Shown: positions 2,851 to 34,772 of the stretch, one piece after another
Layout: each line of letters starts with the position of its first letter
Numbering within the stretch: the first letter of the stretch is position 1
Assembly (NCBI GenBank): GCA_947468085.1
Contig: CANIKY010000026.1
Span: forward strand, 1 to 35,079
Origin: Paracoccaceae bacterium
GTDB taxonomy: Bacteria; Pseudomonadota; Alphaproteobacteria; Rhodobacterales; Rhodobacteraceae
Direction: 5' to 3'
Length of the DNA stretch: 35,079 nucleotides
Program-made: the position numbers and the translations under genes
Notes under the pieces: model-generated
What the model saw: only the letters and a program-made list of their open reading frames with translations
What the model was told of the DNA's origin: nothing
Database searches by the model: none

Positions 2851-2859
2851 GGTTTTGCC

Positions 2860-11292: not shown

Positions 11293-11316
11293 GTCAGTGT
11301 CCTTTTGTGAGGTAAA

Positions 11317-18296: not shown

Positions 18297-18352
18297 CGCG
18301 GCGCCTGAACGGCGCCCGCCATGGCTAGTACGACCCAAAGCTGCGCCACAAG

Positions 18353-19825: not shown

Positions 19826-20782
19826 ATGGAGCTTTTTATGAAGCAGGGATCCGATCGGCAGACGAATGACCTGCCGACGCGTAATTTTCTGGGTTATGGG
19901 GTCAAGCCGCTCGATCCCCGCTGGCCAGAGAACGCGCGCATTGCGATAAACATCAATCTGAACTTCGAGGCCGGCGGCGAGCGTAGTTTGCTGGAGGGTG
20001 ACGCGCAATCTGAGGATGCGCTCAACGACATCGGATTTCCCTCTTATCAGGGGCTGCGCAGCCCGATGGTCGAAAGCGTGTTTGAGTACGGCCCGCGCGT
20101 GGGGATCTGGCGTCTGTTGCGCATTTTTAAGCAGTTCGGCATTCGTGTCAGCATTCTGGGTGTGGTGCGGGCGCTGGAGCAATGTCCGGAGGCCGTGGCG
20201 GCATTTCTGGCGGATGGCCACGAAATAGTGAGCCACGGTTATCGATGGATCGACTATCACGGCATCGCCGAAACTGTCGAACGCGAGCATGTACGGTTGG
20301 CGGTTGAAAGCATCCGCAGGCTAACCGGCATCGCGCCGGCAGGTTGGTTCAGCGGGAGACCGAGCATCAACACCCGACGCCTGATCGTTGAAGCGGGAGG
20401 TTTTCTGTACGACCGCGATGCGTTGAACGATGAATTGCCCTACTGGGTCAATGTATCGGGTATGCAACATCTGGTCATCCCTTATTCTTATGAGACAAAC
20501 GATAACCGCTTTGACCGCAATACCGGTTTTGGCAGCGCTGAGGATTTCGCGCGCTACATGATCGATACGTTTAATTTGATGTATGAAGAGGGTGCGACCC
20601 AGCCGAAACTCATGAGCATTGGTTTGCATGATCGGCTCATCGGTCGGCCCGGCAAGGCAGTGGGCCTGATCCGGTTTCTTGAACATGCTTGCCGGCATGA
20701 CGGTGTCTGGTTTTGCACCGGTCGTGAGGTGGCCCAGCATTGGCACAGACACCACAAACCCAAGGTCTCCGGCGAGGATTGA
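19826..20782 (+). CDS. PuuE-type allantoinase / polysaccharide deacetylase-fold hydrolase
   Basis: A 318-residue NodB-fold protein of the PuuE group rather than a sugar deacetylase. The first motif is NINLNFEAGGE (PuuE-like N.EEGGE instead of TFDDG), followed by GHEIVSHGYRWIDYHG, GWFSGRPSINTRRL, FLYDRDALNDELPYW, and the C-terminal SIGLHDRLIGRPGKA with VAQHWH. PuuE opens the hydantoin ring of allantoin. ATG 19826 is chosen for the GAGGGG four bases upstream; the frame itself opens earlier at GTG 19802. It heads the plus-strand cluster, 64 bases before the first HyuA-like gene. The substrate may be allantoin or another hydantoin. Confidence 0.82.
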   Translation: MELFMKQGSDRQTNDLPTRNFLGYGVKPLDPRWPENARIAININLNFEAGGERSLLEGDAQSEDALNDIGFPSYQGLRSPMVESVFEYGPRVGIWRLLRIFKQFGIRVSILGVVRALEQCPEAVAAFLADGHEIVSHGYRWIDYHGIAETVEREHVRLAVESIRRLTGIAPAGWFSGRPSINTRRLIVEAGGFLYDRDALNDELPYWVNVSGMQHLVIPYSYETNDNRFDRNTGFGSAEDFARYMIDTFNLMYEEGATQPKLMSIGLHDRLIGRPGKAVGLIRFLEHACRHDGVWFCTGREVAQHWHRHHKPKVSGED

Positions 20783-20846
20783 TCAGTGGGCTTGACGGAC
20801 CACCAAGTCAGCGCCCATAACTGTTGTTCACATTGGGGTAACTTGT

Positions 20847-22397
20847 ATGCGCATCGGGGTTGATGTCGGGGGTACGAATACTGATGCTGTGGTGATGCAC
20901 GGCGGGCAGGTCGTGGCTGCAATCAAATCGCCGACCACCGAGGACGTCGGCAGTGGCATCGTGCAGGCTGTTCGGGAGGTTCTTGTGCAGGCCAGCGTCG
21001 CAGCCAGTGCGATCACCAGCGTAATGATTGGTACAACACAGTTCACCAATGCGATTGTGGAGCGCAAGCGTCTGGTCGAGGTAGGGATCATCCGCTTGGC
21101 CTTGCCTGCAACAACAAGCCTACCACCGTTAGTTGACTGGCCCGCCGATCTGGTCGAAAAGATTGGTCGAAATGTCGTGATGGCCCATGGCGGCTATGAA
21201 TACGATGGCCGCGAGATCTCTGCTTTGAGACAAGATGAGATAATCGCCGCCGCTCGTCGATTTAACCGCGCTGGCATCAGGTCCGTTGCAATTAGTTCGG
21301 TATTTGCGCCGATGAATCAAAACATGGAAAAGCGCGCTGCTGACATGTTGCGGGCCGAAATTCCCGGGGTTGCGGTTACCATGTCCAGCAATATTGGCCG
21401 GATCGGAATGGTTGAGCGCGAGAATGCGGCGGTGATGAACGCGTCGCTGATGGAACTGTCCAAACGAGTGGTGGGGGCGTTTCGCACTGCTCTGAAGGAA
21501 ATTGGGGTGACGGCTCCGTTTTTCATCTCGCAGAACGACGGCACCTTGATGACGTCGGACTTTGTCGAAACGTATCCTGTGCTCACCTTCGCCTCTGGGC
21601 CGACCAATTCGATGCGCGGCGCTGCGTTCCTGACCCAGTTCAAGGATGCTATCGTTGTGGATATTGGTGGCACGACAACGGATGTCGGGGTGCTATCTCA
21701 AGGATTTCCGCGCGAGTCCTCTGTTGCGGTCGATGTTGGCGGGGTCAAGACCAACTTTAGGATGCCAGACATTCTATCGATCGGCCTCGGTGGTGGAAGT
21801 CTCGTGCGCGACGACGGTGCAAGGATCGGGCCGGATTCCGTGGGTTTCGAATTGCCAAAATACGGTAAGGTTTTCGGCGGGGACACTCTGACCACGACAG
21901 ATTTGGCGGTGGCAAGCGGCGCGGCGAGGATTGGCAACCCGGCCTTGGTCGCAGAACTGTCGTCCAGCGTCGTGGCGCGGGGCATGGAACGTATTCATCT
22001 TATGCTGGAAGAGGCAATCGATCGGGTGAAAACAACTTCCGCGGACATGAAGGTTGTTCTGGTCGGCGGCGGTGGAGTTCTGGTAACTCGCAAGCTAAAA
22101 GGCGCGTCTGAGGTGATCTTGCCCAAACACGCCGGTGTGGCCAATGCCATAGGCGCAGCAATTGCGCAGGTCGGCGGCGAGGTTGACCGGGTGTTTTCCT
22201 ATGAAGGGCAGGGGCGCGAGTTGGCTTTAGATGGAGCCAAGCGCGAGGCCGCCGACCGCGCAATTGCTGCTGGGGCCGATCCTGCATCTGTCACGATCCT
22301 TGAGGTCGAAGAAGTACCGCTCGCTTATCTGCCGGGGGGCGCGGTCCGGGTGCGGGTAAAGGCGGTCGGCAATCTCGCCGGACATGGGGCTGACTGA
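20847..22397 (+). CDS. HyuA-like hydantoinase/oxoprolinase-family protein, copy 1
   Basis: A 516-residue member of the ASKHA-fold hydantoinase A/5-oxoprolinase family. The ATP-phosphate loops are GVDVGGTNTDAVV (4-16) and VVDIGGTTTDVGV (270-282); IGTTQFTNAIVERK (61-74) and ASGPTNSMRGAA (249-260) are further family signatures, with LVGGGGVLV near the end. Classical HyuA is about 690 residues; this is the shorter form without the C-terminal domain. HyuA enzymes use ATP to open hydantoin or lactam rings, normally with HyuB, which is absent. A DUF917 gene follows 26 bases later, and a paralogue (28625-30169) has the same partner type. Confidence 0.87.
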   Translation: MRIGVDVGGTNTDAVVMHGGQVVAAIKSPTTEDVGSGIVQAVREVLVQASVAASAITSVMIGTTQFTNAIVERKRLVEVGIIRLALPATTSLPPLVDWPADLVEKIGRNVVMAHGGYEYDGREISALRQDEIIAAARRFNRAGIRSVAISSVFAPMNQNMEKRAADMLRAEIPGVAVTMSSNIGRIGMVERENAAVMNASLMELSKRVVGAFRTALKEIGVTAPFFISQNDGTLMTSDFVETYPVLTFASGPTNSMRGAAFLTQFKDAIVVDIGGTTTDVGVLSQGFPRESSVAVDVGGVKTNFRMPDILSIGLGGGSLVRDDGARIGPDSVGFELPKYGKVFGGDTLTTTDLAVASGAARIGNPALVAELSSSVVARGMERIHLMLEEAIDRVKTTSADMKVVLVGGGGVLVTRKLKGASEVILPKHAGVANAIGAAIAQVGGEVDRVFSYEGQGRELALDGAKREAADRAIAAGADPASVTILEVEEVPLAYLPGGAVRVRVKAVGNLAGHGAD

Positions 22398-22423
22398 TCA
22401 CAAAGAGTGCAAAGGGGCGACAA

Positions 22424-23518
22424 ATGGACATCACTCTTGATCGGTTACACGACCTCGCACGGGGGGCTGCTTTTTTAGGCACCGGAGGCGGCGGGGACCC
22501 CTACATCGGTAGACTGATGCTGCAACAGCAACTGAGTGGAGGGGGTAGGGTCCGTCTGATTGACCCGTCCGAACTTGATGATGATGCTCTGGTGGTTCCA
22601 GTGGCAAACATGGGCGCTCCGACGGTACTGGTAGAACGCTTTCCCAACGGCCCCTCGGCGGTCCAAGCGGTGCGCAAGATGGAGAGGCTACTGGGCCGAA
22701 AGGTTGATGCCCTAATGCCGATCGAGGCGGGTGGGGTAAATTGCACCCTACCCTTGGTGGTGGGGTCCTTAATGAACCTGCCAGTGGTCGATGCTGATGG
22801 TATGGGCCGTGCATTCCCCGAACTTCAGATGACGACCTTCAGCATCTACGGCGTGGCGGGCAGCCCGGTCGTGATCCATGACGAGCACGGCAATGATGTC
22901 GTGGTCAGCGCTGTCGACGACAAGACCTCAGAATGGTTGGCCCGGGTGGTGTGCATGCGGATGGGCGGCAAGGCAGAGATCACTTTATACCCGATGAGCG
23001 GGCGCGATGCCAAGACCAAGTCTGTGCCGTATACCGTGTCGCTGGCGCTGCAAATCGGCGGGGTACTTGGCGCGGCACGTTCGACGAAGAGTGACCCATT
23101 CGCGGCCCTGGATGGCTTTTTTCGCGCTGCAAGACCGCCGCGTTGCTTCAAGGTACTGTTTGATGGCAAGGTCACCGACCTGTGGCGCGAGACGACGCGC
23201 GGTTTTGCTGTGGGTCATCTGGTGCTGGGCACACTGGACGGGACAGGTACGCCTATGGATATCGACTTTCAGAACGAATATCTTTCGGCAAGGATTGGTG
23301 AACTTTATGTTGCGACCACGCCCGACCTTATCTGCATTCTGGACCGCGAAACCGCCGAACCTATCACCACAGAAGGTCTGCGTTATGGTCAGCGCGTCAA
23401 GGTCGTGGGTGTTGGGGTCCCACCTGTGATGCGCACACCCGAGGCGCTGGCTGTCTGGGGCCCCCGAGTATTTGGAGTTGAACGAGACTATATCCCGATC
23501 GAGCAGATGGGCGACTGA
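22424..23518 (+). CDS. DUF917 family protein, copy 1 (S-methyl-thiohydantoin desulfurase-like)
   Basis: A 364-residue DUF917 protein. Family blocks: GAAFLGTGGGGDPYIGRL (14-31), VPVANMGAPTVLVER, LPVVDADGMGRAFPELQM (about 118-135), and the C-terminal PDLICILDRETAEPITTEGL with RYGQRV and PPVMRTPEAL. From memory, the Pfam family once called DUF917 is now named after an S-methyl-thiohydantoin desulfurase; most members remain uncharacterised. AAGGGG is 6 bases before ATG. Next to a HyuA-like gene it probably acts on a hydantoin-type ring or its product. It is the most divergent of the three copies (VANMG, VNCTLP, MTTFSIYG). Confidence 0.85.
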   Translation: MDITLDRLHDLARGAAFLGTGGGGDPYIGRLMLQQQLSGGGRVRLIDPSELDDDALVVPVANMGAPTVLVERFPNGPSAVQAVRKMERLLGRKVDALMPIEAGGVNCTLPLVVGSLMNLPVVDADGMGRAFPELQMTTFSIYGVAGSPVVIHDEHGNDVVVSAVDDKTSEWLARVVCMRMGGKAEITLYPMSGRDAKTKSVPYTVSLALQIGGVLGAARSTKSDPFAALDGFFRAARPPRCFKVLFDGKVTDLWRETTRGFAVGHLVLGTLDGTGTPMDIDFQNEYLSARIGELYVATTPDLICILDRETAEPITTEGLRYGQRVKVVGVGVPPVMRTPEALAVWGPRVFGVERDYIPIEQMGD

Positions 23519-23719
23519 TCTCGCCACCAGCGAAAAAGATGGGTGTGACGATTTTTGCCCATAATGATGACAGTAAACTCCAAAAGTGAAGGCACTAGAA
23601 GTGCTGATGATTACTATTGGTTGACTAAAGCATCTTAAGAGCTAGTGTGGCAAAATCTTGCATCCCGTGCCCAGAGAAATGTGGCGATGGTGCCATCTAT
23701 AGATGAAGGGATTAGCAGA

Positions 23720-24487
23720 ATGGCCGTTCATGTTCGCGTAGTAACCCCGATTACGTCGAAGGGGTTTCGCAAACTCAGTGATTTTAGGGGCCTACTGCCG
23801 CCGGGTGACATACTCAGCCATGTAGAGATTGACAAGGGCCCGGCCTCCATCGAATGTGAATACGAAGAAATGCTGGCGATACCCGATACGGTCGCCAAGA
23901 TCATCCAGGCCGAGCGCGACGGAGCTGATGCGGTAGTAATCGACTGCATGGGTGATCCGGGGCTCAAGGCTGGGCGCGAGTGTGTCAGGATACCAGTTTT
24001 TGGTCCCTGCGAGACCTCGATGAACTTGGCCTGTATGCTGGGCGACCATTTCAGCGTCATCACCGTGCTGAAGCGACTGCGTGGCCAGTTCGAAAATCAG
24101 GCGAAACTGTTCGGCGCTTGGGAGAAATACGCTTCTGTCCGGGCCGTGGACATCCCGGTGCTGGACCTTGAAGATGACCTTGGCTCGACCGTCAAGGCGC
24201 TCACTGCACAAGCCATACTTGCCATCGAAGAGGACGGCGCCGATGTGATCATCTTTGGCTGCACCGGAATGCTTGGCTGTGCCGACGGAGTTAGTGAGGG
24301 CCTAAGGCAGCGCGGATATGACGTGCCTGTCATCGACCCAGTTCCGGTCACAGTGCGTATGGCTGCGGCGGTGGCGGCAAGCGGGCTTTGCCATTCTAAA
24401 CTGGCCTATCAGATGCCGCCGAGAAAGAAGATCGTTGGTTATGATATGCCAGACCTTTACCAAATGAGCGCACACGGGGTGCGATGA
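23720..24487 (+). CDS. Asp/Glu/hydantoin racemase family protein
   Basis: A 255-residue racemase of the HyuE/allantoin racemase group, cofactor independent, with two catalytic cysteines: Cys76 in VVIDCMGDPGL and Cys181 in IIFGCTGMLG. The N-terminus (MAVHVRVVTPITSKGF) matches HyuE/HpxA (RV..P.TS..). ATG 23720 is chosen over the frame opening at 23645 because homologues start here and GAAGGG lies 9 bases before. Such enzymes interconvert enantiomers of 5-substituted hydantoins or allantoin so that a stereospecific ring-opening enzyme can use both. Its stop overlaps the first permease start (ATGA), tying it to transport. Confidence 0.85.
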   Translation: MAVHVRVVTPITSKGFRKLSDFRGLLPPGDILSHVEIDKGPASIECEYEEMLAIPDTVAKIIQAERDGADAVVIDCMGDPGLKAGRECVRIPVFGPCETSMNLACMLGDHFSVITVLKRLRGQFENQAKLFGAWEKYASVRAVDIPVLDLEDDLGSTVKALTAQAILAIEEDGADVIIFGCTGMLGCADGVSEGLRQRGYDVPVIDPVPVTVRMAAAVAASGLCHSKLAYQMPPRKKIVGYDMPDLYQMSAHGVR

Positions 24488-25404
24488 ACACAATGGACCT
24501 AACCAGCTCGCCCTACCAGAACAGCTTTGGCCGGAGCGTCAGGGTATTTCTGGGGGGCAGCCGAGTATTCTGGCTGATCCTGCCAGCCTTTGCCTTTTTT
24601 CTGATTTTCTTTTTTGTGCCCGTCCTGTCTCTGTTCCTTATCAGCCTCGACAAGCCGGTAGCGGGCGTGGTCGAGCCGCAATGGAGCTTTACTGCAACCA
24701 ATTTCATTCGCTTTTTCACCCGGGACACCTATTACGGTGCGGCGCTCCGGTCGATCGAGATGGCGACGCTGGTGGCGCTGATCACGCTGGTGCTGGGCTA
24801 TCCCCTCGCATTCATGATCGCTAGGACCGAAAATCCGGGGCGCAACACTTTTTACATGATCTTGGTCCTGTGCGCGATGCAGCTGGATATGGTGATCCGA
24901 CTTTACGGGTTGATGGTATTGTTAGGTGACAATGGGCTGATAAACCGCGCGCTGCTGGATGCGGGTTGGATTGAGGAACCCTTGCCGCTGATGTACAACT
25001 TTTCTGGGGTGGTCATCGGGCTGGTGCAGTTCTCGCTCCCTCTAATGGTGTTGTCTCTTATCGGTGTGATCCGGTCGATCAATCCATCCTTGGAGGAGGC
25101 GGCGCGCAGTCTGGGCGCGACGCGGAGGGCGGCCTTCTGGCGCATCATCGTACCGCTGTCAATGCCGGGCATCTTGGCCGGGTCACTCTTGGTTTTTGCC
25201 ATCTCGATCAGTTCCTACGTTGTGCCGGCGCTGATGGGTGGCTGGAAGGTCATTGTCATGCCGATCCATATCTATCAGCAGATCGCCGAGTTGGGGAAAT
25301 GGCAGTTCGGGGCCGCTATTGCCGTGGTTCTGTTCGCCACATCCGTGTTGGCTGTGGTGGTCTATCAGCGCTATGCTGCCATCACCGCCGGAGGGCGTAC
25401 CTGA
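24484..25404 (+). CDS. ABC transporter permease 1 (PotB-like)
   Basis: A 306-residue inner-membrane permease of the spermidine/putrescine-opine (PotB/PotH) class. Six membrane segments are apparent, the first at about residues 29-55 (FWLILPAFAFFLIFFFVPVL); the EAA loop reads EEAARSLGATRRAAFWRIIVP before the fifth helix, where it contacts the ATPase. Translationally coupled to the racemase (4-base overlap) and followed after one base by the second permease. Import of a small, probably nitrogenous compound is inferred from the transporter subclass and neighbours; the substrate cannot be read from the permease. Confidence 0.9.
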   Translation: MNTMDLTSSPYQNSFGRSVRVFLGGSRVFWLILPAFAFFLIFFFVPVLSLFLISLDKPVAGVVEPQWSFTATNFIRFFTRDTYYGAALRSIEMATLVALITLVLGYPLAFMIARTENPGRNTFYMILVLCAMQLDMVIRLYGLMVLLGDNGLINRALLDAGWIEEPLPLMYNFSGVVIGLVQFSLPLMVLSLIGVIRSINPSLEEAARSLGATRRAAFWRIIVPLSMPGILAGSLLVFAISISSYVVPALMGGWKVIVMPIHIYQQIAELGKWQFGAAIAVVLFATSVLAVVVYQRYAAITAGGRT

Positions 25405-25405
25405 G

Positions 25406-26266
25406 ATGGCCAAAGTTGCAACGTCAGCCGAGTTAAGAGTTGCCAGCCAGCGCCGCTGGTCTGAGCGTGCAATCCCGATCAGCATTCAGATTGGCGCTTG
25501 GGTTTCATTTGTCATCTTGCTGTTGCCAGTGGCTGTAGTGGTGCTGGCAGGCCTCAATTCAGGCGATTACCTGACCTTCCCGCCAGAGGGCCTTTCGCTG
25601 CGCTGGGTGATAGCCTTTTTGACTTCGCCGGCCTGGATGGGAGCTTATGGCTTCAGCATGGCTCTGGCTTTGGTAACTATGGTGATCTCGACCGTTCTGG
25701 GCACAGCCGCCGCAATTGTTCTGTCGCGCTATCGTTTCCGCGGGCGCGACATGCTCCGCGCCTACTTTCTATCGCCCTTGATCCTGCCCGGCGTGGTGCT
25801 TGGCCTGGCGTTGTACGTCTTTTACGTCGTCACCGATATCGGATTGGCCAAGAGCATGACTGGCCTTGTGATCGGCCACGTGCTTGTGACGTGTCCTTAT
25901 GTCATTGGCACTGTCTCGGCGGCTCTGGTGGCGTTTGATGTATCGCTGGAAGAGGCCGCACGCAGTCTGGGTGCCAGTCCATGGACAGCATTTCGCCGCA
26001 TCACCGTTCCCAACATCTCTGCCGGGGTTGCTGCAGGGGCGACGTTCGCCTTCATCGTTTCCTTCGGCCAGTTCGATGTGTCGCTTTTTCTCAGCACGCC
26101 AAACCTGACGCCGCTCCCGATCGCGCTTTATGTCTCGCTGCGCTATACTTTTGAGCCGACTGCAGCGGCTGCGGGTATCTTTGCAATTATTCTGGTGGTG
26201 GTCTCGATGCTGATCACCTCTCGCCTCGTCAGCCTGCGGAAATTCGGTGGCATCAAGTTCAGTTAA
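25406..26266 (+). CDS. ABC transporter permease 2 (PotC-like)
   Basis: A 286-residue permease beginning MAKVATSAELRVASQRRW at ATG 25406, two bases after the stop of permease 1; the longer frame from 25238 is rejected because it overlaps that gene. The first membrane helix is AWVSFVILLLPVAVVVLAGL, and the EAA loop is EEAARSLGASPWTAFRRITVP. It pairs with permease 1 to form the heterodimeric channel of a PotABCD-type importer. Complete and of typical length. Confidence 0.9.
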   Translation: MAKVATSAELRVASQRRWSERAIPISIQIGAWVSFVILLLPVAVVVLAGLNSGDYLTFPPEGLSLRWVIAFLTSPAWMGAYGFSMALALVTMVISTVLGTAAAIVLSRYRFRGRDMLRAYFLSPLILPGVVLGLALYVFYVVTDIGLAKSMTGLVIGHVLVTCPYVIGTVSAALVAFDVSLEEAARSLGASPWTAFRRITVPNISAGVAAGATFAFIVSFGQFDVSLFLSTPNLTPLPIALYVSLRYTFEPTAAAAGIFAIILVVVSMLITSRLVSLRKFGGIKFS

Positions 26267-26337
26267 GCCGACGCGGGAAATGCCCCACTATCTAAGACAA
26301 CTGACAAATCAGAAAAGAACCAACAGAGGAGTTCCAA

Positions 26338-27465
26338 ATGTCCAATATCCCAACAGACACTGGTAAGAATATCTCCAGACGTAATCTGCTCAAACGTGGT
26401 GCTGCTGCCGGGTTTGGCGCTGGTCTGCCGCTTTTCAATATCAATCATGCCTGGTCGCAGGACGTCTATTACGACGGTCAGGTGTTCGACGCCGGTGGCG
26501 CCACGCTGAACGTTGGCGAATGGGGCGGGTTCTGGCAGGAGTTTGTGACCGCAAACCTGCTGGATCAGTTCCAGAAGGATTTCAACTGCAAGATTTCTTA
26601 CGACAGTTCTTGGCCTTGGTTCCCGAAATTCGTCGCCGGAGGTGTTGAGAAGCCGGTGTATGACATTGCCAACTGGAACCTGCCCGACATGTTCAAGACG
26701 GCGCGGGCCGGCGATTTCTTCCTAAAAAAGGACGAGCTGATCTCGAATATTCCCAATGCCAAAGACTGCTGGGATTTTGCCTTTGAAAATGGCATTGGCG
26801 TGACTTGGGGCTACGGCCAATATGCGTATGCTTACCGCACTGACATTGCCAATCCTGCGCCGACGGACTTCAAGTCGTTCTGGCAGGATCAGTATGGCGG
26901 CGGCAAGCGCGGCACCTACATAACCTCGAACACGCTCCAGATGGAGTTCTTCATGACTGCCTCGCATGTCTTCGGTGGCGACACCAAGAACATTGATGCT
27001 GGATATGAGGCGATGCGTGCGGCAGTGCCGATGAAAATTTCGGACTTTACTGGCAATATGCAGACCCTGATCGAACGCGGTGAAGTCAACATCTGCGTTC
27101 AGTGGGAAGGCGAGATATACAATCAGGTCGATAAGGGGGTCCCAGTTGCCGCCATGGTTTGGCAGGAGTTGAAGCCGATCCTCACCCAGACCAAGACAAT
27201 CAGCCGCTATTCTGAGCCGTTGCAGAAAAGGTTGGCACTTGCTTTGCTGGACCGAACGCTCGACCCGGCCTATGCCCAGAAGTTTGCGGAAACTTTCTAT
27301 ATGCGGCCTACTAACGGCAAGGCTGTTATCCCGCCAAACCTGGCCAGCAAGGGCGTTGTAAACACCGCCGATGCGACCAACGGTTTGGTGACGATGGACT
27401 GGAACTGGTATCTCGACAACGAGGACGACATTGTCGAAACCGTGAATGGGATTTTCTCTGCTTAA
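26338..27465 (+). CDS. ABC transporter substrate-binding protein with Tat signal (PotD-like)
   Basis: A 375-residue periplasmic binding protein of the extracellular solute-binding family used by polyamine/opine-type importers. The N-terminus carries a twin-arginine signal (SRRNLLKRG, residues 13-21, then a hydrophobic AAAGFGAGLPL) and cleavage probably near SQD, so it is likely exported folded. Mature motifs include NVGEWGGFWQEF, YDSSWPWFPKF and YDIANWNLPDMF; the aromatic-rich early region may line the ligand pocket. GAGGAG precedes the ATG. A stem-loop follows the gene, which could stabilise its mRNA so that binding protein exceeds permease. Confidence 0.88.
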   Translation: MSNIPTDTGKNISRRNLLKRGAAAGFGAGLPLFNINHAWSQDVYYDGQVFDAGGATLNVGEWGGFWQEFVTANLLDQFQKDFNCKISYDSSWPWFPKFVAGGVEKPVYDIANWNLPDMFKTARAGDFFLKKDELISNIPNAKDCWDFAFENGIGVTWGYGQYAYAYRTDIANPAPTDFKSFWQDQYGGGKRGTYITSNTLQMEFFMTASHVFGGDTKNIDAGYEAMRAAVPMKISDFTGNMQTLIERGEVNICVQWEGEIYNQVDKGVPVAAMVWQELKPILTQTKTISRYSEPLQKRLALALLDRTLDPAYAQKFAETFYMRPTNGKAVIPPNLASKGVVNTADATNGLVTMDWNWYLDNEDDIVETVNGIFSA

Positions 27466-27477
27466 CGCGCTCTCAGG

Positions 27478-27496
27478 CTGCGGGCGGCGCCCGCAG
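27478..27496 (+). promoter_or_regulatory. Intercistronic stem-loop after binding-protein gene
   Basis: CTGCGGGC-GGC-GCCCGCAG is a perfect 8-bp GC-rich stem with a 3-base loop, 12 bases after the binding-protein stop and 34 bases before the ATPase start. No T-run follows, so it is more likely an mRNA-stabilising hairpin or attenuator than a full terminator. Confidence 0.6.
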
Positions 27497-27529
27497 TCTG
27501 CCATTCCCTGACTGGCGAGGTTCCATTCC

Positions 27530-28597
27530 GTGTCCACCGTCGAAATCGTCGAACTAACCAAATCCTATGGAGGCACGCTCGCCCTGTCGCCTACCAGCTT
27601 TCGAGTAGAAGAGGGCGAATTCTTTTCTCTGCTCGGCCCATCGGGCTGTGGCAAGACAACTACCCTGCGCATGATCGCGGGGTTTGTCGCGCCGACTGGA
27701 GGGGCCGTTGTCATCGGTGGTGAGGATCTGACCTTTTTGCCGCCCGAACGACGCGGCATCGGGATCGTGTTTCAAAACTATGCGATCTTCCCGCATATGA
27801 ACGTGTTTGACAACATTGCTTTTGGCCTTTTGATGCGGAAGGTCCCCAAGCCCGAGATTGCCAAGCGGGTGATGGAGGCCCTCGACCAGGTTGGACTGTC
27901 GGGCTATCACGCGCGGTTTCAGCGCGAACTGTCGGGTGGCGAGCAACAGCGCGTTGCTTTGGCGCGAGTGCTGATCACCGAACCGCGCATCCTACTTCTG
28001 GACGAGCCGCTCAGTGCGCTCGATAAAAAATTGCGCGAAGAGATGAAATACTGGATCAAGGAATTGCAGCGCAACCTCAAGATAACCACTATTTATGTGA
28101 CCCATGATCAGGGCGAGGCGCTAACCATGTCGGACCGCATCGCCGTGATGAACAAGGGCTCGGTGGCGCAGATCGGCACGCCGGATGATATATATGAACG
28201 CCCCGCCAGTCGGTTTGTCACAGAATTCATTGGTGAATCTAACATTCTGGACGTCGTGGTGCAATCAGTGGACGGCGGCTTATGCAAGGTTTCTATCGGC
28301 GATAAGGTAGCGCTGGCCCGGTCGCGCCTCGGTCTGGCGGTTGGCGATGTGGCAGCCTTGGTGGTGCGTCCAGAGCAGGTGCTTTTGGGCGAGGATGCCG
28401 CCCAAAGTGCCAATCCCCTATCTGGCGTCGTGCTGGATCATACCTATCAGGGCAGCTTCATCCGATACCGCGTCGATGTCGGCGGCCACAAGTTGGTGGC
28501 TGAGGTTGCCAACCGCTCGGACCAATCGATCATAGCGGACGGCACCAAAGTCGCTGTCGCCTGGCAGGCCGAAGGGGCCAGCCTGACAACTAACTGA
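27530..28597 (+). CDS. ABC transporter ATP-binding protein (PotA-like)
   Basis: A 355-residue ATPase: Walker A GPSGCGKT (36-43), Q-loop FQNYAIFPHMNV, signature LSGGEQQRVALARV (134-147), Walker B ILLLDEPLSALD (154-165), H-loop His192 (YVTHDQGEA), then a TOBE domain in the last 110 residues (IYERPASRFVTEFIGESN; VVRPEQVLL). Start is GTG 27530 with GAGG upstream. This is the PotA/FbpC class with a C-terminal regulatory domain, completing the importer with the two permeases and binding protein. It precedes the second HyuA-like gene by 27 bases. Confidence 0.92.
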   Translation: MSTVEIVELTKSYGGTLALSPTSFRVEEGEFFSLLGPSGCGKTTTLRMIAGFVAPTGGAVVIGGEDLTFLPPERRGIGIVFQNYAIFPHMNVFDNIAFGLLMRKVPKPEIAKRVMEALDQVGLSGYHARFQRELSGGEQQRVALARVLITEPRILLLDEPLSALDKKLREEMKYWIKELQRNLKITTIYVTHDQGEALTMSDRIAVMNKGSVAQIGTPDDIYERPASRFVTEFIGESNILDVVVQSVDGGLCKVSIGDKVALARSRLGLAVGDVAALVVRPEQVLLGEDAAQSANPLSGVVLDHTYQGSFIRYRVDVGGHKLVAEVANRSDQSIIADGTKVAVAWQAEGASLTTN

Positions 28598-28624
28598 ATT
28601 CAGGACAAATAGGGAAACCAGAGC

Positions 28625-30169
28625 ATGCGTATAGGCATAGACGTGGGCGGGACCAACACGGACGCAGTCCTGATGGACGGGATGGAGGTCAAAAGCTGGC
28701 ATAAAACGCCGACCTCGGCCGATGTCTCGAGTGGCATCATGGCAGTGCTGCGGGCGGTTATGACTGAGGGTGGGGCAAACCCAACCGATATTACCGGCGT
28801 GATGATCGGCACCACCCATTTCACCAATGCCGTGGTCGAACGCAAACGCTTGCTCCAGGTTGCGGCGATCCGACTTGGCTTGCCTGCGACATTGGGCCTG
28901 CCGCCGATGATCGACTGGCCCGATGATTTGGGCTCCACACTCGGCTATCACCGTTACATGATCCATGGTGGCCATGAATTTGACGGCCGCCAAATCGCCC
29001 CTTTGAATGAAGACGAATTGCGCGCAGCGGGGCGTGATATGAAGAAAAAAGGTCTGCGCGCTGGGGCGATCACATCTGTTTTCTCGCCAGTCAACCCCGA
29101 CATGGAAATCCGCGCCGCCGAAATCATCGCGGAGGAAGTTCCGGATGTTGCATTGTCGCTAAGCCATCAGGTTGGCCGCATAGGTTTCCTTGAACGCGAG
29201 AATGCCACTATTATGAATGCGTGTCTGGCCGACCTTGCGACCAAGGTGGTTCAATCCTTCCGGCTGGCGCTTTCCACGCTGAACATCACCGCCCCCTTCT
29301 ACATCTCGCAAAACGACGGCACGCTGATGACGGCAGAATATGTGGAAAAATACCCGGTTCTTACCTTTGCTTCCGGCCCAACCAACTCGATGCGTGGGGC
29401 CGCGCTGTTGGCAGGCGTCAAGGAGGCGATGGTGGTCGATATCGGTGGTACCACATCGGATGTTGGGATGCTATTGCATGGTTTTCCGCGTGAATCCTCA
29501 GTCACCGTTGAAATTGGAGGGGTGCGAACCAATTTCCGTATGCCCGACGTGCTTGCCATCGGCCTTGGCGGTGGCAGCCTGGTGCGTGACAATGGGTTGC
29601 GAATTGGACCGGATTCGGTGGGTTATGAGTTGACCGAAAAAGCGTTGGTCTTTGGCGGAGATGTGCTGACCACTACTGATATCGTGGTGGCGGCGGGCCT
29701 GGCCGATATCGGCGACCGGAGCAAGGTGGCCCATCTGACGCCAGAGTTGATCGAGAACGCCATTGTCACTATGCACCGGATGGTTGATGAAGCAGTAGAC
29801 AAGATGAAGACCAGTTCAGAGCCCCTGCCGGTTATTCTGGTCGGAGGCGGAGCGGTGCTGATGTCGCGCGGCCTGTCCAGCGCATCGCATATTCTCAAGC
29901 CGCCCCATTTCTCGGTTGCCAACGCCATCGGGGCCGGGATTGCGCAGGTCGGCGGCGAGGTTGACAGGGTATTCTCGCTGGAAGGTCTGGGCCGTGATGC
30001 CGCCCTGGCCCAGGCTAAAGCTGAAGCCATCGCAAAGACTGTGGCTGCCGGTGCCAGACCCGAGACTGTCCAGGTCACCGATATTGAGGAAGTGCCGTTG
30101 GCCTATCTGCCCTCCTCTGCCACCCGAATCCGCGTCAAGGCTGTCGGCGATCTGGTGGTGACGAAATGA
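28625..30169 (+). CDS. HyuA-like hydantoinase/oxoprolinase-family protein, copy 2
   Basis: A 514-residue paralogue of the protein encoded at 20847-22397, about 58% identical over the first 100 residues by eye. It has the same phosphate loops (GIDVGGTNTDAVL and VVDIGGTTSDVGM), IGTTHFTNAVVERKRLL and ASGPTNSMRGAA, and also lacks the long C-terminal domain of classical HyuA. Its stop overlaps the start of the next DUF917 gene by 4 bases, a tighter coupling than in the first cassette. Sequence divergence across the first 50 and last 150 residues suggests a different substrate or a different step rather than a recent duplicate. Confidence 0.87.
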   Translation: MRIGIDVGGTNTDAVLMDGMEVKSWHKTPTSADVSSGIMAVLRAVMTEGGANPTDITGVMIGTTHFTNAVVERKRLLQVAAIRLGLPATLGLPPMIDWPDDLGSTLGYHRYMIHGGHEFDGRQIAPLNEDELRAAGRDMKKKGLRAGAITSVFSPVNPDMEIRAAEIIAEEVPDVALSLSHQVGRIGFLERENATIMNACLADLATKVVQSFRLALSTLNITAPFYISQNDGTLMTAEYVEKYPVLTFASGPTNSMRGAALLAGVKEAMVVDIGGTTSDVGMLLHGFPRESSVTVEIGGVRTNFRMPDVLAIGLGGGSLVRDNGLRIGPDSVGYELTEKALVFGGDVLTTTDIVVAAGLADIGDRSKVAHLTPELIENAIVTMHRMVDEAVDKMKTSSEPLPVILVGGGAVLMSRGLSSASHILKPPHFSVANAIGAGIAQVGGEVDRVFSLEGLGRDAALAQAKAEAIAKTVAAGARPETVQVTDIEEVPLAYLPSSATRIRVKAVGDLVVTK

Positions 30170-31254
30170 TCCTCAATAGCGCTGATCTTATCGATCTGTG
30201 CCGCGGGGCGGCATTTCTGGGTACGGGTGGCGGCGGTGATCCATACATTGGTCGCCTGATGGTAGAGCACGCTATTTCCGAGGCACATCCGGTCGAGATC
30301 ATAGATCCCTCCGATGTGCCGGACGATGCGCTGGTCATCCCCACCGCCATGATGGGCGCGCCGACTGTGCTGGTCGAGAAAATCCCGCGTGGCAACGAGG
30401 CGGTGCTGTCCTTGCAGCGGCTTGAACGACATCTGGGCAAGAAAGTGTTCGCCACCATGCCTATCGAGATTGGGGGCATCAATTCGACCATGCCATTGGT
30501 CGTGGGTGCACGCCTCAACCTTCCCGTGGTCGATGCTGACGGCATGGGCCGCGCATTCCCAGAATTACAGATGGAAACCTTCAACGTCTATGGCGTGCAC
30601 GGCACGCCGATGGCGATCACCAATGAATACGGCGACTGCACACTGATTGAGACCCATGACAACAAGATGATGGAATGGATTGCTCGCGGCGTGGCTATCC
30701 GTATGGGCGGCGCCGCCTATATTGCCAATTATCCGATGACTGGCGAACAGGTCAAACGCACCTCTGTGCCCAACACGCTGACGTTAGCGTTGAAGATCGG
30801 GCGCTGCATTCGTGAGGCGCGCGAGGCCCATCGCAACCCATTCGACGCGCTTTTGAACCTATTGCCCAAAACCCCCTATAACTTTGGTAAGATCATCTTT
30901 CGCGGCAAGATCAGCGACATGTTTCGCGAAACCCGCGCCGGTTTTGCCGCAGGACGAGCGCGGATCGAAGGCCTTGGCGAGTGGAAAGGTGTCATGGTAA
31001 TCGAGATCCAGAACGAAAACCTAACCGCCCGGGTCGATGGGGTCCTGAAGGCAATCGTACCCGACCTCATTTGCATACTAGACAGCGAAACTGCTGAGCC
31101 GATTACCACTGAAACGCTGCGCTATGGCCAGCGCGTGACGGTGATGGGGGTGGCAGTGCCGCCGATGATGCGCACCCCTGAGGCTCTGGCGATCTTTGGC
31201 CCGGTTGGCTTTGGTTTCACGGACAAGTTCACCCCGATAGAAGCAATGGATTAA
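30166..31254 (+). CDS. DUF917 family protein, copy 2
   Basis: A 362-residue DUF917 protein with the family blocks GAAFLGTGGGGDPYIGRL (14-31), MMGAPTVLVEKIPRG, NLPVVDADGMGRAFPELQME and PDLICILDSETAEPITTETL with RYGQRVTVMGVAVPP. It begins inside the stop of HyuA-like copy 2 (ATGA). It is closer to copy 3 than to copy 1 (shared METFNVYG, PDLICILDSET, FGKI/FSGKI-SD regions), so copies 2 and 3 may be a local duplication or two subunits of one complex. Soluble, cytoplasmic. Confidence 0.85.
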   Translation: MILNSADLIDLCRGAAFLGTGGGGDPYIGRLMVEHAISEAHPVEIIDPSDVPDDALVIPTAMMGAPTVLVEKIPRGNEAVLSLQRLERHLGKKVFATMPIEIGGINSTMPLVVGARLNLPVVDADGMGRAFPELQMETFNVYGVHGTPMAITNEYGDCTLIETHDNKMMEWIARGVAIRMGGAAYIANYPMTGEQVKRTSVPNTLTLALKIGRCIREAREAHRNPFDALLNLLPKTPYNFGKIIFRGKISDMFRETRAGFAAGRARIEGLGEWKGVMVIEIQNENLTARVDGVLKAIVPDLICILDSETAEPITTETLRYGQRVTVMGVAVPPMMRTPEALAIFGPVGFGFTDKFTPIEAMD

Positions 31255-31257
31255 GCA

Positions 31258-32355
31258 ATGCCACGCCAATTTGTGCTTGAGGATCTTGATGACCTTTGCA
31301 GGGGCGCAGCCGTCCTTGGAACTGGCGGTGGTGGGGACCCCTATATCGGGGGGCTTCTGGCCGCTGAAGCCATCCGCAAGTATGGGCCTGTAACCCTCTG
31401 GGATCTGGCCGAAGTCCCTGACGATGCTTTGGTCGTAGCCATTGGCGGTATGGGAGCCCCGACTGTGGTGATCGAGAAAATCCCCAATGGCCGCGAATAT
31501 CTATGGGCGCTGGAGGCGTTGGAGCGGCATCTGGGTCGCAAGGTGGATGCCATAATTCCATTTGAGGCGGGTGGCATGAATTCAACAACGCCGCTGATGG
31601 TGGCGGCTGAACGTGGCCTGCCGGTTGTCGATGCTGATGGCATGGGCCGTGCATTCCCAGAATTGCAGATGGAAACCTTCAACGTCTATGGCGTACCTGC
31701 CGCCCCGATGGCGGTGGTAAATGAGTGGGGTGACAGTGTGATCATCGAGGCGGGCAGCGCCAAGATGGTAGAATGGCTAGCGCGGGGGGCGACAATTCGC
31801 ATGGGCGGCCATACCGCGATTGCCGAATATGCAATGGACGGCGCCACTTGCCGGCGTGTCTCGGTGCCAGGAACGCTCGGCCTGACCCAGATCATCGGAC
31901 GCAGCATCCGTGAGGCCCGTGAACAGCACCGAGATGTCTTTACCAGTCTGATCGCTAGTTTTGCGAGCACGCACTATCAGCATGCCCGAATTCTTTTTTC
32001 CGGCAAGATCTCTGATGTTTCGCGTCGCACTGAACGCGGTTTTGCCATCGGTGATGTCCGCATCGAAGGGCTGGAGCCGTTTGCAGGTGAAATGCTGATC
32101 CGGGTGCAGAACGAAAACCTGTTGGCGCTGCGCGACGGTCAGGTCCGTGCTATTGTCCCAGATCTGATCTGCATATTAGACAGTGAGACCGGCGACGCCA
32201 TCACCACCGAGCGCGTCCGATATGGCCAGCGCGTCACCGTGCTTGGCGTGTCTGTGCCGCCGATCATGCGCACCGCTGAAGCCCTGGCTATCTTTGGCCC
32301 GCACGCCTTTGGTCTGGATTACCCATTTACCAAGATCGAGGACCTGCCCCGCTAA
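31258..32355 (+). CDS. DUF917 family protein, copy 3
   Basis: A 365-residue DUF917 protein beginning MPRQFVLEDLDDLCRGAAVL three bases after copy 2, with no clear Shine-Dalgarno sequence, so it is probably translated by coupling. Blocks: GTGGGGDPYIGGL (21-33), GGMGAPTVVIEKIPNG, GLPVVDADGMGRAFPELQME, PDLICILDSETGDAITTERV and PPIMRTAEALAIFGPHAFG. The third block carries GD where copies 1 and 2 have AE, a possible specificity change. Last gene of the plus-strand run; its stop overlaps the convergent nitroreductase stop by four bases. Confidence 0.85.
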   Translation: MPRQFVLEDLDDLCRGAAVLGTGGGGDPYIGGLLAAEAIRKYGPVTLWDLAEVPDDALVVAIGGMGAPTVVIEKIPNGREYLWALEALERHLGRKVDAIIPFEAGGMNSTTPLMVAAERGLPVVDADGMGRAFPELQMETFNVYGVPAAPMAVVNEWGDSVIIEAGSAKMVEWLARGATIRMGGHTAIAEYAMDGATCRRVSVPGTLGLTQIIGRSIREAREQHRDVFTSLIASFASTHYQHARILFSGKISDVSRRTERGFAIGDVRIEGLEPFAGEMLIRVQNENLLALRDGQVRAIVPDLICILDSETGDAITTERVRYGQRVTVLGVSVPPIMRTAEALAIFGPHAFGLDYPFTKIEDLPR

Positions 32356-33365
32356 AGCGTCACGGTCGGTGCGGCCAGGTTGAGCCTTGGGTTAAGGGAT
32401 AGGACCAAATCCTGAGGCTTTCGTTGTGATAAGGGCACTCGGAAAATCTCTTTCAAATGGCCTACGCCGATCATCGTGATCACCGCCTCGTTGTCGGGAA
32501 TGCCAACGCACGCACGCATAGCCTTGTCGATGTCCTTCGTGACGCTCCAGTTCAACATGCAGGCCCCTAGGCCAGCCGCATGAAAGGCCAGCGCCAGCGT
32601 CATGGCGAACAGGCCACCGTCGATCCAATGCTGATATCGCTCGCCGATCAGGTTCAAGTGTTCCATGTTCGAGGTGACAATCAGCACCGCCCCAACCTCA
32701 GAGCCAAAGCCGCGGTTGCCCGACTGATAAGACAGGACGCGAGCCTTGTCCTCGGCGCCGGTGAAGGCATAGACCTTACAGGTTTGGCGGTTGCAAACCG
32801 ATGGTGCCTGTTGTGCGGCCTTGGTAGCCGCCTCGATCTCGCTTCTCATTACCGGTTGGTCAGAGAATTGCCTCACGGAATGGCGGGCCTGCATGAATGC
32901 TACGAAATCACCAGTTGAGGCTCGTCGCAGATCGGCAGCCCGAACCTCTTCCGTACCACCCGCTACCTCCGTCGCGCGAAAGCCGTTCGTAGCGTCAAAC
33001 CTGTCCAATTCGCCCGCTACATCCGAGACATCCACCACTACGCTGCGATTGAACGCCACCCAAGCGTCGAGCACCCGCATAGCCGAAGCGGTCGAACTAT
33101 CGGGCCCGTAATCCACGATATAATCATTGATCTTCCGCAGTAGACTTGTCACCTTGTCTTTCCCAAAGCCCGGCCTAGGGTTCGACAGCGACAGTCCATG
33201 TTCAATGGAATGAAACAGAATATGGATCAACGCCCGCTGGTTCTCACGGTTGCGCTTGCCAATCAAGAAGGAAGCTTTGGCAAAGCGGCGGTAATCGTAC
33301 CAGAAATTCGCGGCCAGTTTAACCGCAAGCATCAGATCCCTGGCCTTCTGATTCCAAAGTGTCAT
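32352..33365 (-). CDS. Nitroreductase-family flavoprotein with N-terminal extension
   Basis: A 337-residue protein. Residues about 155-337 are a nitroreductase-like FMN domain: QARHSVRQFSDQPV, QQAPSVCNRQTCKVYAF, HWIDGGLFAMTLALAFHAAG, LGACMLNW, and VGHLKEIFRVPLSQRKP. The first 150 residues (NFWYDYRRFAKASFLIGKRN; ILFHSIEHGLSLSNPRPGFG) form an extension not found in simple nitroreductases. The gene converges on the DUF917 genes with overlapping stops. Reductive or dehydrogenating chemistry on a ring compound is possible but not shown; a role unrelated to the cluster is equally possible. Confidence 0.8.
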   Translation of the reverse strand: MTLWNQKARDLMLAVKLAANFWYDYRRFAKASFLIGKRNRENQRALIHILFHSIEHGLSLSNPRPGFGKDKVTSLLRKINDYIVDYGPDSSTASAMRVLDAWVAFNRSVVVDVSDVAGELDRFDATNGFRATEVAGGTEEVRAADLRRASTGDFVAFMQARHSVRQFSDQPVMRSEIEAATKAAQQAPSVCNRQTCKVYAFTGAEDKARVLSYQSGNRGFGSEVGAVLIVTSNMEHLNLIGERYQHWIDGGLFAMTLALAFHAAGLGACMLNWSVTKDIDKAMRACVGIPDNEAVITMIGVGHLKEIFRVPLSQRKPQDLVLSLNPRLNLAAPTVTL

Positions 33366-33812
33366 GCATACTACCCAAGGTCGCGGACATCTTCCGTTAA
33401 CTTATCGGCGCAGCTTTCTGACAAAATGTCAAAGGGAAGAATGTGGATTGTCGCCCTTTCAAAGTTTCCCCCGACCCCAGCCATTTGGCAATCCCCATTT
33501 ATAGCGGGGTCGATTTGACATCGTATACTGCCTCATCTCTCCAAAATATCCGCAAAACAAAGATCTAGCAGAACGATTCAGCGGAAGGATCGACGAGGTC
33601 CAGCAATCCCTTTTCGGGCTGGCTATGACCGAGAAGCCATGTTTTGGGGGGATATGCTGCTCTAAAATCAGCAGCTTCTCGAATTAGTCCTCGGCAACAA
33701 GATACTCTTGCAAGCAAGGAAGGCGTGGCGCAAAATGAGGTCAAAGTTCCTTTGAAAGCAGACCTATCAAATACAAGGAAGTGACACCTATGAATACTTT
33801 TTCGTGAACTAA
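33366..33812. other. Intergenic region upstream of the amidase gene
   Basis: No supported coding sequence in 447 bases; the sequence is noticeably more AT-rich than its neighbours. It holds the divergent control regions of the nitroreductase and the amidase, a -10-like TATACT near 33513, a hairpin GCTGCT-ctaaaatc-AGCAGC (33656-33675), and a tiny open frame MNTFS (33790-33807) with AAGGAAG upstream, which could be a leader peptide or chance. Confidence 0.4.
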
Positions 33813-34772
33813 ATGTGCAAAGTCTGCGACTATACCATCCACTCAGCGCAACATCATTTCGGCTGGGACAACGCACTTGTACCGGCCGAACGAGTGGTGC
33901 CGGGATCGACAATCCTGTTCCAATGTAACGACAGCTCGGCGGGCCAGCTTGGCCCGTCATCCAGTGTTGCCGACGTAATCACGCTTGATTTCGGTAAGAT
34001 CAACCCAACCTCTGGACCTATTTATGTCGAAGGCGCGCAACCCGGTGATGCGTTGCGCGTGACCATCGAAAGCTTCATACCTCAGCCCCGCGCAGGGCGT
34101 GGCTTTGGGTGGACGGCTAATATCCCAGGGTTTGGCTTGCTGGCAGATCAATTTCTCGATCCCGCTCTGCATATCTGGTCTTATGACGTTGGGCAAATGG
34201 CGCCAGCGCTGTTTGGCACCCTTGCCAGGGTGCCCCTTAAACCCTTTGCTGGTACCATCGGCAACTCACCAGCCGCCCCCGGCCTTCACTCTGTCGTGCC
34301 ACCCCGCAGGGTGGGGGGTAATCTTGACATCCGCGACCTGACCGCCGGCGTGATCTTGTATCTGCCGGTTGAGGTGGAAGGCGCATTGTTTAGCGTCGGC
34401 GACACGCATGCGGCCCAAGGCGACGGCGAGGTTTGCGGCACTGCCATCGAATCCCCGATGGACGTGGTACTGACGCTGGACCTTGTCAAAGGCGCAAACC
34501 TCAAGACGCCGCGCTTTACAACCCCGGGTCCGGTGACGCGCCATCTGGATGCCAAAGGCTATGAGGTGACGACCGGCATAGGCCCTGACCTGATGCACGC
34601 AGCGCGCGACGCCGTGTCGCACATGATCGACTTTTTGTGTGCAACACGCGGGATGGCGGCGGTCGATGCCTATATGCTGTGTTCCACCTGCGGTGATCTG
34701 CGCATCTCTGAGATCGTGGACATGCCCAATTGGGTGGTCAGCTTTTATTTTCCGCGTGTGGTGTTCGAATGA
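33813..34772 (+). CDS. Acetamidase/formamidase family protein (FmdA/AmdA)
   Basis: A 319-residue amidohydrolase of the FmdA/AmdA family: YTIHSAQHHFGWDNALVPAE at the start, VEGAQPGDALRVTIESF near 75-92, GGNLDIRDLTAGVILYLPVE near 168-187, and VGDTHAAQGDGEVCGTAIES near 193-212 with the conserved metal-binding GD.H..QGDGE motif. Family members release ammonia from formamide or acetamide. No good Shine-Dalgarno sequence precedes ATG 33813, so translation may be weak. It is separated from the main cluster by the nitroreductase but fits as the enzyme that deamidates the ring-opened product or formamide. Length is normal. Confidence 0.88.
   Translation: MCKVCDYTIHSAQHHFGWDNALVPAERVVPGSTILFQCNDSSAGQLGPSSSVADVITLDFGKINPTSGPIYVEGAQPGDALRVTIESFIPQPRAGRGFGWTANIPGFGLLADQFLDPALHIWSYDVGQMAPALFGTLARVPLKPFAGTIGNSPAAPGLHSVVPPRRVGGNLDIRDLTAGVILYLPVEVEGALFSVGDTHAAQGDGEVCGTAIESPMDVVLTLDLVKGANLKTPRFTTPGPVTRHLDAKGYEVTTGIGPDLMHAARDAVSHMIDFLCATRGMAAVDAYMLCSTCGDLRISEIVDMPNWVVSFYFPRVVFE

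Follow-up and report, generated by a model that had tools for sequence, protein, structure and literature searches.

A conserved gene run that pairs short HyuA-type ATPases with DUF917 proteins: a candidate operon for the breakdown of a small cyclic amide, perhaps a cyclic dipeptide

The stretch of DNA analyzed here, referred to as the window, is one whole contig (CANIKY010000026.1, 35,079 nucleotides, our contig C26) of the draft assembly GCA_947468085.1 from a Paracoccaceae bacterium, which comprises 3.22 Mb in 196 contigs with an estimated contamination of 1.9%. At positions 19826-32355 it carries eleven closely spaced plus-strand genes in the order PuuE-like, HyuA 1, DUF917 a, racemase, PotB, PotC, binding protein, PotA, HyuA 2, DUF917 b and DUF917 c, and 4-base overlaps are found between the racemase and PotB genes and between HyuA 2 and DUF917 b. 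We tentatively read this run as an operon by which a small cyclic amide is broken down, with cyclic dipeptides (2,5-diketopiperazines) as the likeliest substrate, a reading that falls somewhat short of probable. It is built around the pairing of a short HyuA with a DUF917 protein, which probably takes the place of the usual HyuB subunit. The genes of the run and its immediate surroundings are the following:

19826..20782, plus strand: PuuE-like hydrolase of the polysaccharide-deacetylase fold (PF01522; closest solved structures 1z7a and 3cl6)
20847..22397, plus strand: short HyuA 1, 516 amino acids, ATPase subunit (PF05378 and PF01968; 59% identity to HyuA 2)
22424..23518, plus strand: DUF917/S-Me-THD-like protein a, 364 amino acids, presumed partner of HyuA 1 (PF06032 and PF20906)
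23720..24487, plus strand: two-cysteine racemase of the hydantoin/allantoin type (PF01177; frame open from a GTG at 23645, the ATG at 23720 matching the start position of some orthologues)
24484..25404, plus strand: PotB-type permease (PF00528)
25406..26266, plus strand: PotC-type permease (PF00528; ATG at 25406 within a longer open frame, orthologues in loci L052 and L053 having 286 amino acids)
26338..27465, plus strand: solute-binding protein, PotD-related (phmmer to PotD, E 2e-9)
27530..28597, plus strand: PotA-type ATP-binding cassette (ABC) ATPase (PF00005 and PF08402, TOBE)
28625..30169, plus strand: short HyuA 2, 514 amino acids, core ATPase subunit (PF05378 and PF01968)
30166..31254, plus strand: DUF917 b, presumed hydrolytic partner (S-Me-THD/DUF917 Pfam match)
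31258..32355, plus strand: DUF917 c, second DUF917 protein of the core (S-Me-THD/DUF917 Pfam match)
32352..33365, minus strand: nitroreductase-family protein with an N-terminal extension of about 150 amino acids (PF00881)
33813..34772, plus strand: FmdA/AmdA-family amidase (PF03069; a gap of 0.45 kb precedes the gene)

Families were assigned by Pfam at an E-value of 0.001 and by phmmer, and for selected proteins the curated cut-offs of NCBIfam/TIGR were applied. All families that a first-pass annotation had named from the sequence were found in their places, the solute-binding protein, which no Pfam family matches at E 0.001, by phmmer to PotD; the nitroreductase gene on the minus strand at 32352-33365 had been overlooked within the span that was then described. 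The PotA-type ATPase passes TIGR01187 (363.9 bits, cut-off 355.6), the PuuE-like protein stays under the cut-off of TIGR03212 (366.1 versus 424.6 bits), and the FmdA-family protein stays under that of NF045496 (126.4 versus 500 bits).

The conservation of the gene set was followed in two samples. The first consists of the best 80 of 499 confirmed loci (L035-L114, 1.34 Mb in total, many of them short stretches), which were recruited with both HyuA proteins of the window and in which genes were taken as frames anchored on tblastn matches, as longest-open-frame calling had been dropped on account of antisense frames in the GC-rich DNA. The second consists of 22 plasmid regions, picked from 121 plasmid records matched. 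The genes racemase-PotB-PotC-solute-binding protein-PotA-HyuA-DUF917 lie on one strand and in this order in 17 of the 80 loci, and 14 of these have a second DUF917 gene; in the remaining three (L052, L053 and L065) the fetched stretch stops at or shortly past the first one. All four Pot-type importer proteins are present at an identity of at least 38% in 24 loci, the racemase is present in 33, and both occur in 21. According to public annotation, the core is found in the same order on the plasmids p1 of Aminobacter niigataensis and pAU20b of Aureimonas. Two metagenome-assembled genomes (MAGs) of Afifellaceae (L052 and L053) carry the arrangement HyuA 1-DUF917 a-regulator-racemase-Pot genes-HyuA 2-DUF917 b with identities of 74-90%. 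A MalT-type LuxR regulator accompanies 15 of the 24 loci having the full Pot importer; elsewhere in the host genome, matches to it are short and confined to the DNA-binding end, and none was noted in the window. A variant order, solute-binding protein-racemase-PotB-PotC-PotA-DUF917-HyuA with an amidase gene set before it, was observed on plasmids of Rhizobium, Shinella and Neorhizobium (L162, L163 and L164).

As the core recurs in many genomes, the gene set exceeds what chance would bring together. That the genes are accidental neighbors and do not form one pathway could be argued from the end genes, PuuE and FmdA, which are not conserved with the rest, and from the origin of the contig in a draft of 196 pieces, but the same order in 17 loci and on two named plasmids, together with the 4-base overlaps, makes this the most improbable of the readings considered. 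The comparison of genome neighborhoods, which had been suggested as a check, hence supported the proposed import-and-catabolism set with its racemase as far as the core is concerned and failed to do so for the two end genes, which had been counted as pathway members: the PuuE-like gene recurs in a single one of the 80 loci (L065, 67% identity), and the same holds for the FmdA-family gene (L079, only 30% identity). For this reason both are best excluded from the pathway, the PuuE-like gene being accessory and the FmdA gene not conserved with the core. HyuA 2 shares 85% identity with the copies in the two Afifellaceae MAGs, whereas HyuA 1 reaches no more than 57% identity to short HyuA proteins among the matches listed from genomes of the same genus. 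From these values it seems likely that the operon was horizontally acquired or that the contig was misbinned.

The pairing of short HyuA and DUF917 is close. A DUF917 gene begins no more than 300 bases downstream of a short HyuA gene (470-600 amino acids) in 83 of the 88 cases at the 80 loci, with many of the pairs overlapping or nearly so; the five exceptions are a HyuA on the minus strand (L061), a 410-base gap (L070) and three genes without a close downstream DUF917 (L074, L106 and L108). As the loci were recruited via HyuA, these numbers describe how often a HyuA gene has a DUF917 neighbor, and the share of DUF917 genes that lack a HyuA is not given by these lists. DUF917 also adjoins HyuA, before or after it, in 22 of the 22 plasmid regions examined, among which two DUF917 proteins are annotated merely as hypothetical protein and one region (L148) has a small annotated frame in between. 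Of the four DUF917 genes in the host genome, the window holds three; the remaining one, on contig C38, immediately follows a short HyuA gene and is accompanied by a Dpp-type importer. On that contig (positions 2228-17630), the short HyuA-DUF917 pair, its Dpp importer and an AsnC-type regulator stand beside long HyuA-HyuB and Pot-type importer genes. Pairs of short HyuA and DUF917 occur in Pseudomonadota, Chloroflexota, Actinomycetota and Bacillota. The sequence distances of HyuA and DUF917 are correlated across 78 pairs (r 0.91), a value reached by 0 of 1000 permutations, which ignore shared descent; the correlation is weak evidence, as it would fit partner proteins but equally plain co-inheritance.

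The window's HyuA proteins match their Pfam families with E-values from 1.6e-30 to 3.7e-41, and the Hydantoinase_A family PF01968 is covered only over the first 173 of its 291 positions. The phosphate motifs are well kept, D.GGT.TD in 48 and D.GGT[TS] in 47 of 49 short HyuA proteins. The adenosine motif GxxPGP is found in 0 of the 49, and also in just 1 of 14 long HyuA controls; it had been considered as a mark that sets the short HyuA apart, and it was dropped since the long controls mostly do without it, too. AlphaFold models were made of HyuA 2 and DUF917 b, each as a single chain. The HyuA 2 model (mean pLDDT 91.1) has 9h03, 5svc and 5m45 as best fold matches and 6yra at rank 7, so that N-methylhydantoinase, acetone and acetophenone carboxylases and the caprolactamase subunit CapA are represented. 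The first-pass annotation had spoken of ATP-grasping proteins; the predicted fold is instead that of N-methylhydantoinase, acetone carboxylase beta and CapA, and the CapA type of HyuA is described as an ASKHA-type ATPase in the CapAB paper (PMC8453981). The DUF917 b model (from an alignment of 93 sequences, mean pLDDT 95.3) has 2o3i, a DUF917-type hypothetical protein, as its sole match in the PDB at E <0.001, and no HyuB- or CapB-like fold is found among its best 50 matches. The polar residues kept in at least 95% of the 93 aligned DUF917 proteins are Asp, Glu, Asn, Arg, Lys and Tyr, and no column has a histidine in more than 33 of them. A HyuB domain (PF02538) was found in none of the 13 scanned proteins of the run. 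Because of the linkage in 83 of 88 cases and in all 22 plasmid regions, DUF917 is probably the partner subunit of HyuA that replaces HyuB, and it is plausible, by analogy, that short HyuA and DUF917 work together in the manner of CapAB. Membership in the HyuAB family fails on the partner subunit, which is DUF917 instead of HyuB. In public annotation, such neighbors appear as hydantoinase/oxoprolinase family protein and DUF917 domain-containing protein.

A separate desulfurization or deamination step by DUF917, as had been assumed at first, does not agree with this tie to HyuA. It would belong to a degradation of thiohydantoins, for example of a breakdown product of ergothioneine, with the DUF917 proteins as desulfurases. 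DUF917 a, the one DUF917 protein covered by the NCBIfam scan, indeed matches the thiohydantoin and S-methyl thiohydantoin desulfurase equivalogs with E-values of 8.5e-21 and 1e-22, but its scores are far below the cut-offs, with 74.4 bits for NF058529 (cut-off 440) and 80.6 bits for NF058532 (cut-off 450). Also, the host's histidine-lyase and urocanase, used as tblastn queries, match in 0 of the 80 loci, although a divergent ergothionase could escape such a search, and in the host itself the genes for these two enzymes are no more than 5 kb apart, on a contig other than the window. On both grounds the thiohydantoin or ergothioneine route was rejected as very improbable.

The racemase itself lived up to its first description, in that both catalytic cysteines are present: they align with the two positions that differ between cysteine and serine in the structures 3qvj and 3qvk, and they are kept in 35 and 36, respectively, of 36 racemases including the one of the window. 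Four residues by which PotD binds spermidine are Asp168, Glu171, Trp255 and Asp257; in a weak phmmer alignment (E ~1e-9) these face Ile, Asn, Thr and Lys in the binding protein of the window, which reaches 40.1 bits against NF007048 (cut-off 582). The binding protein thus does not look like a polyamine binder, in line with what the first description would have required. Importers vary among the loci, as the fetched stretches contain a Pot-type importer in 24, a Dpp-type permease in 23, a TonB-dependent receptor in 19 and an NCS1 permease in 7 cases, and none of these in 16.

Clues to the substrate come mainly from the genes that accompany the pair elsewhere. A dipeptidase of family M19 is present in 8 of the 80 loci, from about six lineages, whereas roughly 0.5 would be expected in 1.34 Mb, as estimated from 118 matches in roughly 330 Mb of 101 relatives of the host, a sample that is taxonomically mismatched with the 80 loci. 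In one locus (L036) the M19 gene directly follows the nitroreductase. An Alloyangia plasmid carries in one run a Dpp importer, two HyuA/DUF917 pairs and then an isoaspartyl peptidase (Asparaginase_2) and an M19 gene; this isoaspartyl peptidase, used as query, matches in 0 of the 80 loci. On a Shinella zoogloeoides plasmid (L160, 10001-21533), a HyuA-DUF917-Dpp unit adjoins genes for a Mur ligase and a cyanophycin synthetase. These neighbors, together with the Alloyangia isoaspartyl peptidase, might be a pointer to aspartyl peptides.

A minimal unit of a cytosine-type permease, DUF917 and HyuA is found on plasmids of Limosilactobacillus, Lactiplantibacillus, Pediococcus and Sodalis (pSG2), in two cases with a PucR regulator, and no carbamoylase is annotated in the stretches covered. 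The product of such a unit may need just ordinary host enzymes, and this would agree with a dipeptide, for which ordinary peptidases suffice, rather than with an N-carbamoyl amino acid. An Arsenophonus plasmid has the same three genes with the permease on the other strand.

A further line of evidence leads to the cyclodipeptide oxidases (CDO), whose small subunit is the family PF19585, named CDOB (PMC11055893). PF19585 is found in 4 of the 80 loci (L046, L054, L066 and L101), in the first three together with the nitroreductase CDOA and in L101 alone, at the contig end. In L066 the order, with short gaps, is Dpp ATPase-nitroreductase-CDOB-HyuA-DUF917-racemase. In L046 (15073-20463), the CDO genes are followed by genes for a CN hydrolase, DUF1177, AroM and another DUF917 protein, all within a racemase-Pot-HyuA operon. 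As controls for rarity, 398 genomes from the host's phylum gave no PF19585 match above cut-off, and the L066 protein has no match in 72,556 plasmids. CDO clusters without a cyclodipeptide synthase (CDPS) have been reported to show an enrichment of racemases (PF01177), DUF917 proteins (PF06032) and transporters (PMC11055893). The nitroreductase of the window also recurs: at 44-56% identity it stands next to the racemase, in divergent orientation, in 8 of the 80 loci (L036, L040, L042, L047, L048, L049, L051 and L057), which come from Kaistia, Rhizobium, Martelella, Chelativorans, Rubellimicrobium and one alphaproteobacterial MAG. Its best structural match is 8cqt, and albonoursin synthase 8uc3 is matched weakly (E 2.4e-5); a role as CDO stand-in is a speculation from these likenesses.

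Several observations weigh against cyclic dipeptides. The window contains neither a CDO nor a dipeptidase, the host genome is without a PF19585 match, and its single M19 gene lies outside the window. In 72 of the 80 loci M19 was not found, and it is present in just 1 of the 22 plasmid regions. The CDO-linked loci are only four, three of them labeled Chloroflexota, and the controls for rarity cover the host's phylum and plasmids, not Chloroflexota. The racemase is closest to hydantoin and allantoin racemases, and its family is known for these two substrates. NCS1 permeases of the cytosine/allantoin type stand beside the pair in the 7 loci mentioned and accompany it on plasmids of Gram-positive bacteria and insect symbionts, in some cases along with PucR regulators; such permeases would suit rings derived from nucleobases as well as hydantoins. 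In 3 of the 22 plasmid regions (L158, L161 and L164), an annotated M20 or N-carbamoyl amidohydrolase gene is no more than 10 kb away from the pair. Finally, the CDO authors, who called DUF917 experimentally uncharacterized, suggest that these proteins are hydantoinases (PMC11055893), but NCBIfam by now names two DUF917 equivalogs as thiohydantoin desulfurases.

The last four of these points would suit the alternative that a 5-substituted hydantoin or another cyclic ureide is opened to an N-carbamoyl amino acid, which a carbamoylase, usually unlinked, then finishes. This is a possible but unlikely reading. It could further draw on N-methylhydantoinase among the nearest HyuA structures, on the thiohydantoins as substrates of the DUF917 equivalogs named in NCBIfam, and on the PuuE-like and ureidoglycolate-lyase-like genes of the window. 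It is opposed by the carbamoylase searches: M20 enzymes of the carbamoylase type, searched with queries from L158, L161 and L164 (two of which match each other at 37%), are found in 0 of the 80 loci, and the CN hydrolase of L046 matches only in L046 itself (1 of 80). Host M20 queries gave 0 of 80, too, but are insensitive, as they also miss the three annotated plasmid M20 genes. The minimal plasmid units show no annotated carbamoylase, and the CDO and M19 associations are left unexplained. In L164, a gene for an N-carbamoyl-beta-alanine amidohydrolase lies about 4 kb beyond the variant solute-binding protein-racemase-Pot-DUF917-HyuA operon, and a Ketogulonicigenium plasmid (L161, 2908-11539) combines long HyuA-HyuB, an M20 hydrolase, AroM, DUF917 and a short HyuA. 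The substrate could also be some other cyclic amide, such as a lactam, an imide or a pyroglutamate- or beta-lactam-like natural product, in which case the links to racemase and CDO would be incidental. This we consider quite unlikely; the HyuA superfamily spans caprolactam, oxoproline and N-methylhydantoin as substrates, and the variety of importers (Pot, Dpp, NCS1 and TonB-dependent receptor) suggests several substrates across the family, but CDO and M19 recur above rough expectation. Taken together, the neighboring genes lean to cyclic dipeptides over ureides, while hydantoins stay in play on account of the NCS1 permeases, the M20 genes on plasmids and the family of the racemase.

If cyclic dipeptides are the substrate, the putatively co-transcribed genes can be arranged into a pathway. 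The PotABCD-type ABC importer would take up the cyclic amide, and the two-cysteine racemase would invert an alpha-carbon of the ring, so that several stereoisomers become usable. Each short HyuA would then activate a ring carbonyl at the expense of ATP, and its DUF917 partner, in a presumed complex that lacks HyuB, would finish the hydrolysis to the linear dipeptide, which ordinary host dipeptidases could split. M19 dipeptidases prefer dipeptides with a D residue, and a dipeptide of this kind might be what the racemase supplies. Catalysis is modeled here on CapAB, for which a mechanism with a tunnel between the subunits has been proposed (PMC8453981). The presence of two HyuA and three DUF917 genes could give enzyme forms that differ in specificity. 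In its widest form, the proposal would make short HyuA and DUF917 a second class of ATP-dependent cyclic-amide hydrolases, with two subunits but no HyuB and with cyclic dipeptides as natural substrates, the racemase leading to D-residue dipeptides and the nitroreductase standing in for CDO; as a whole this is rather less probable than not.

Outside the run, the window contains a row of a class-III aminotransferase, a ureidoglycolate-lyase-like (PF04115, 2374-2850) and a class-IV aminotransferase gene at 1037-3771, which are possibly ureide-related yet lie about 16 kb away from the operon. At 16126-19204, genes of the IF-2B family (MtnA-like), of a class-II aldolase and of the phosphorylase superfamily (MtnP-like) were assigned by Pfam, which we take to be perhaps a set for methylthioadenosine salvage. 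The minus-strand genes at 5382-11739 encode a phage tail terminator, tail tube/minor tail proteins, a tail assembly chaperone, a tape measure protein and a DUF2460 protein, which suggests a prophage or gene-transfer-agent-like remnant.

Should the proposal be true, a gene pair of soil, marine, food- and insect-associated bacteria would gain a function, DUF917 would gain a partner and a reaction, and the reported enrichment of DUF917 and racemases beside CDOs (PMC11055893) would be explained. One strain each of Rhizobium and Agrobacterium has been reported to degrade diketopiperazines (PMC3852281); among the 80 loci, the operon is found in both genera, though not necessarily in these very strains, and Rhizobium leguminosarum USDA 2370 (L047) is one of its carriers. 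A description of a HyuA-DUF917 enzyme or of this operon was not recognized in the open-licence literature, subscription journals having been mostly outside the search.

Known systems resemble the run in its parts. With the PotABCD polyamine importer it shares the subunit families and an ATPase above the TIGR01187 cut-off, but the binding protein is far below the PotD cut-off and the four spermidine-binding residues are absent in the alignment. With the hydantoin and allantoin racemases (3qvj and 5lfd) it shares the family and both cysteines, as aligned with 3qvj, but here the racemase stands in the context of an importer and HyuA-DUF917, without carbamoylase-type M20 genes in the 80 loci. The thiohydantoin desulfurases NF058529 and NF058532 belong to a common DUF917 superfamily, with DUF917 a far under both cut-offs. 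CDO clusters without CDPS (PMC11055893) have racemase, DUF917 and transporters in common with the loci, four of which carry the CDO small subunit, but the window is without CDO, and in the accessible part of that work HyuA is not named as partner of DUF917. Closest in mechanism would be CapAB, 5-oxoprolinase and N-methylhydantoinase, with which the window HyuA proteins share the N-terminal and Hydantoinase_A domains, both phosphate motifs and, in the HyuA 2 model, the 9h03/6yra fold. They differ in being short (about 515 amino acids) and in lacking the C-terminal domain PF19278, which the host's long HyuA has; an ordinary HyuAB is encoded elsewhere in the host, on contig C38. Likewise, CapB has been reported to have an Asp-His-Asp-His metal site (PMC8453981), whereas the DUF917 model matches 2o3i and not CapB, and DUF917 has no well-conserved histidine. 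The single families are well known, and we regard their combination around the HyuA-DUF917 pair as a putative variant of the ATP-dependent cyclic amidases.

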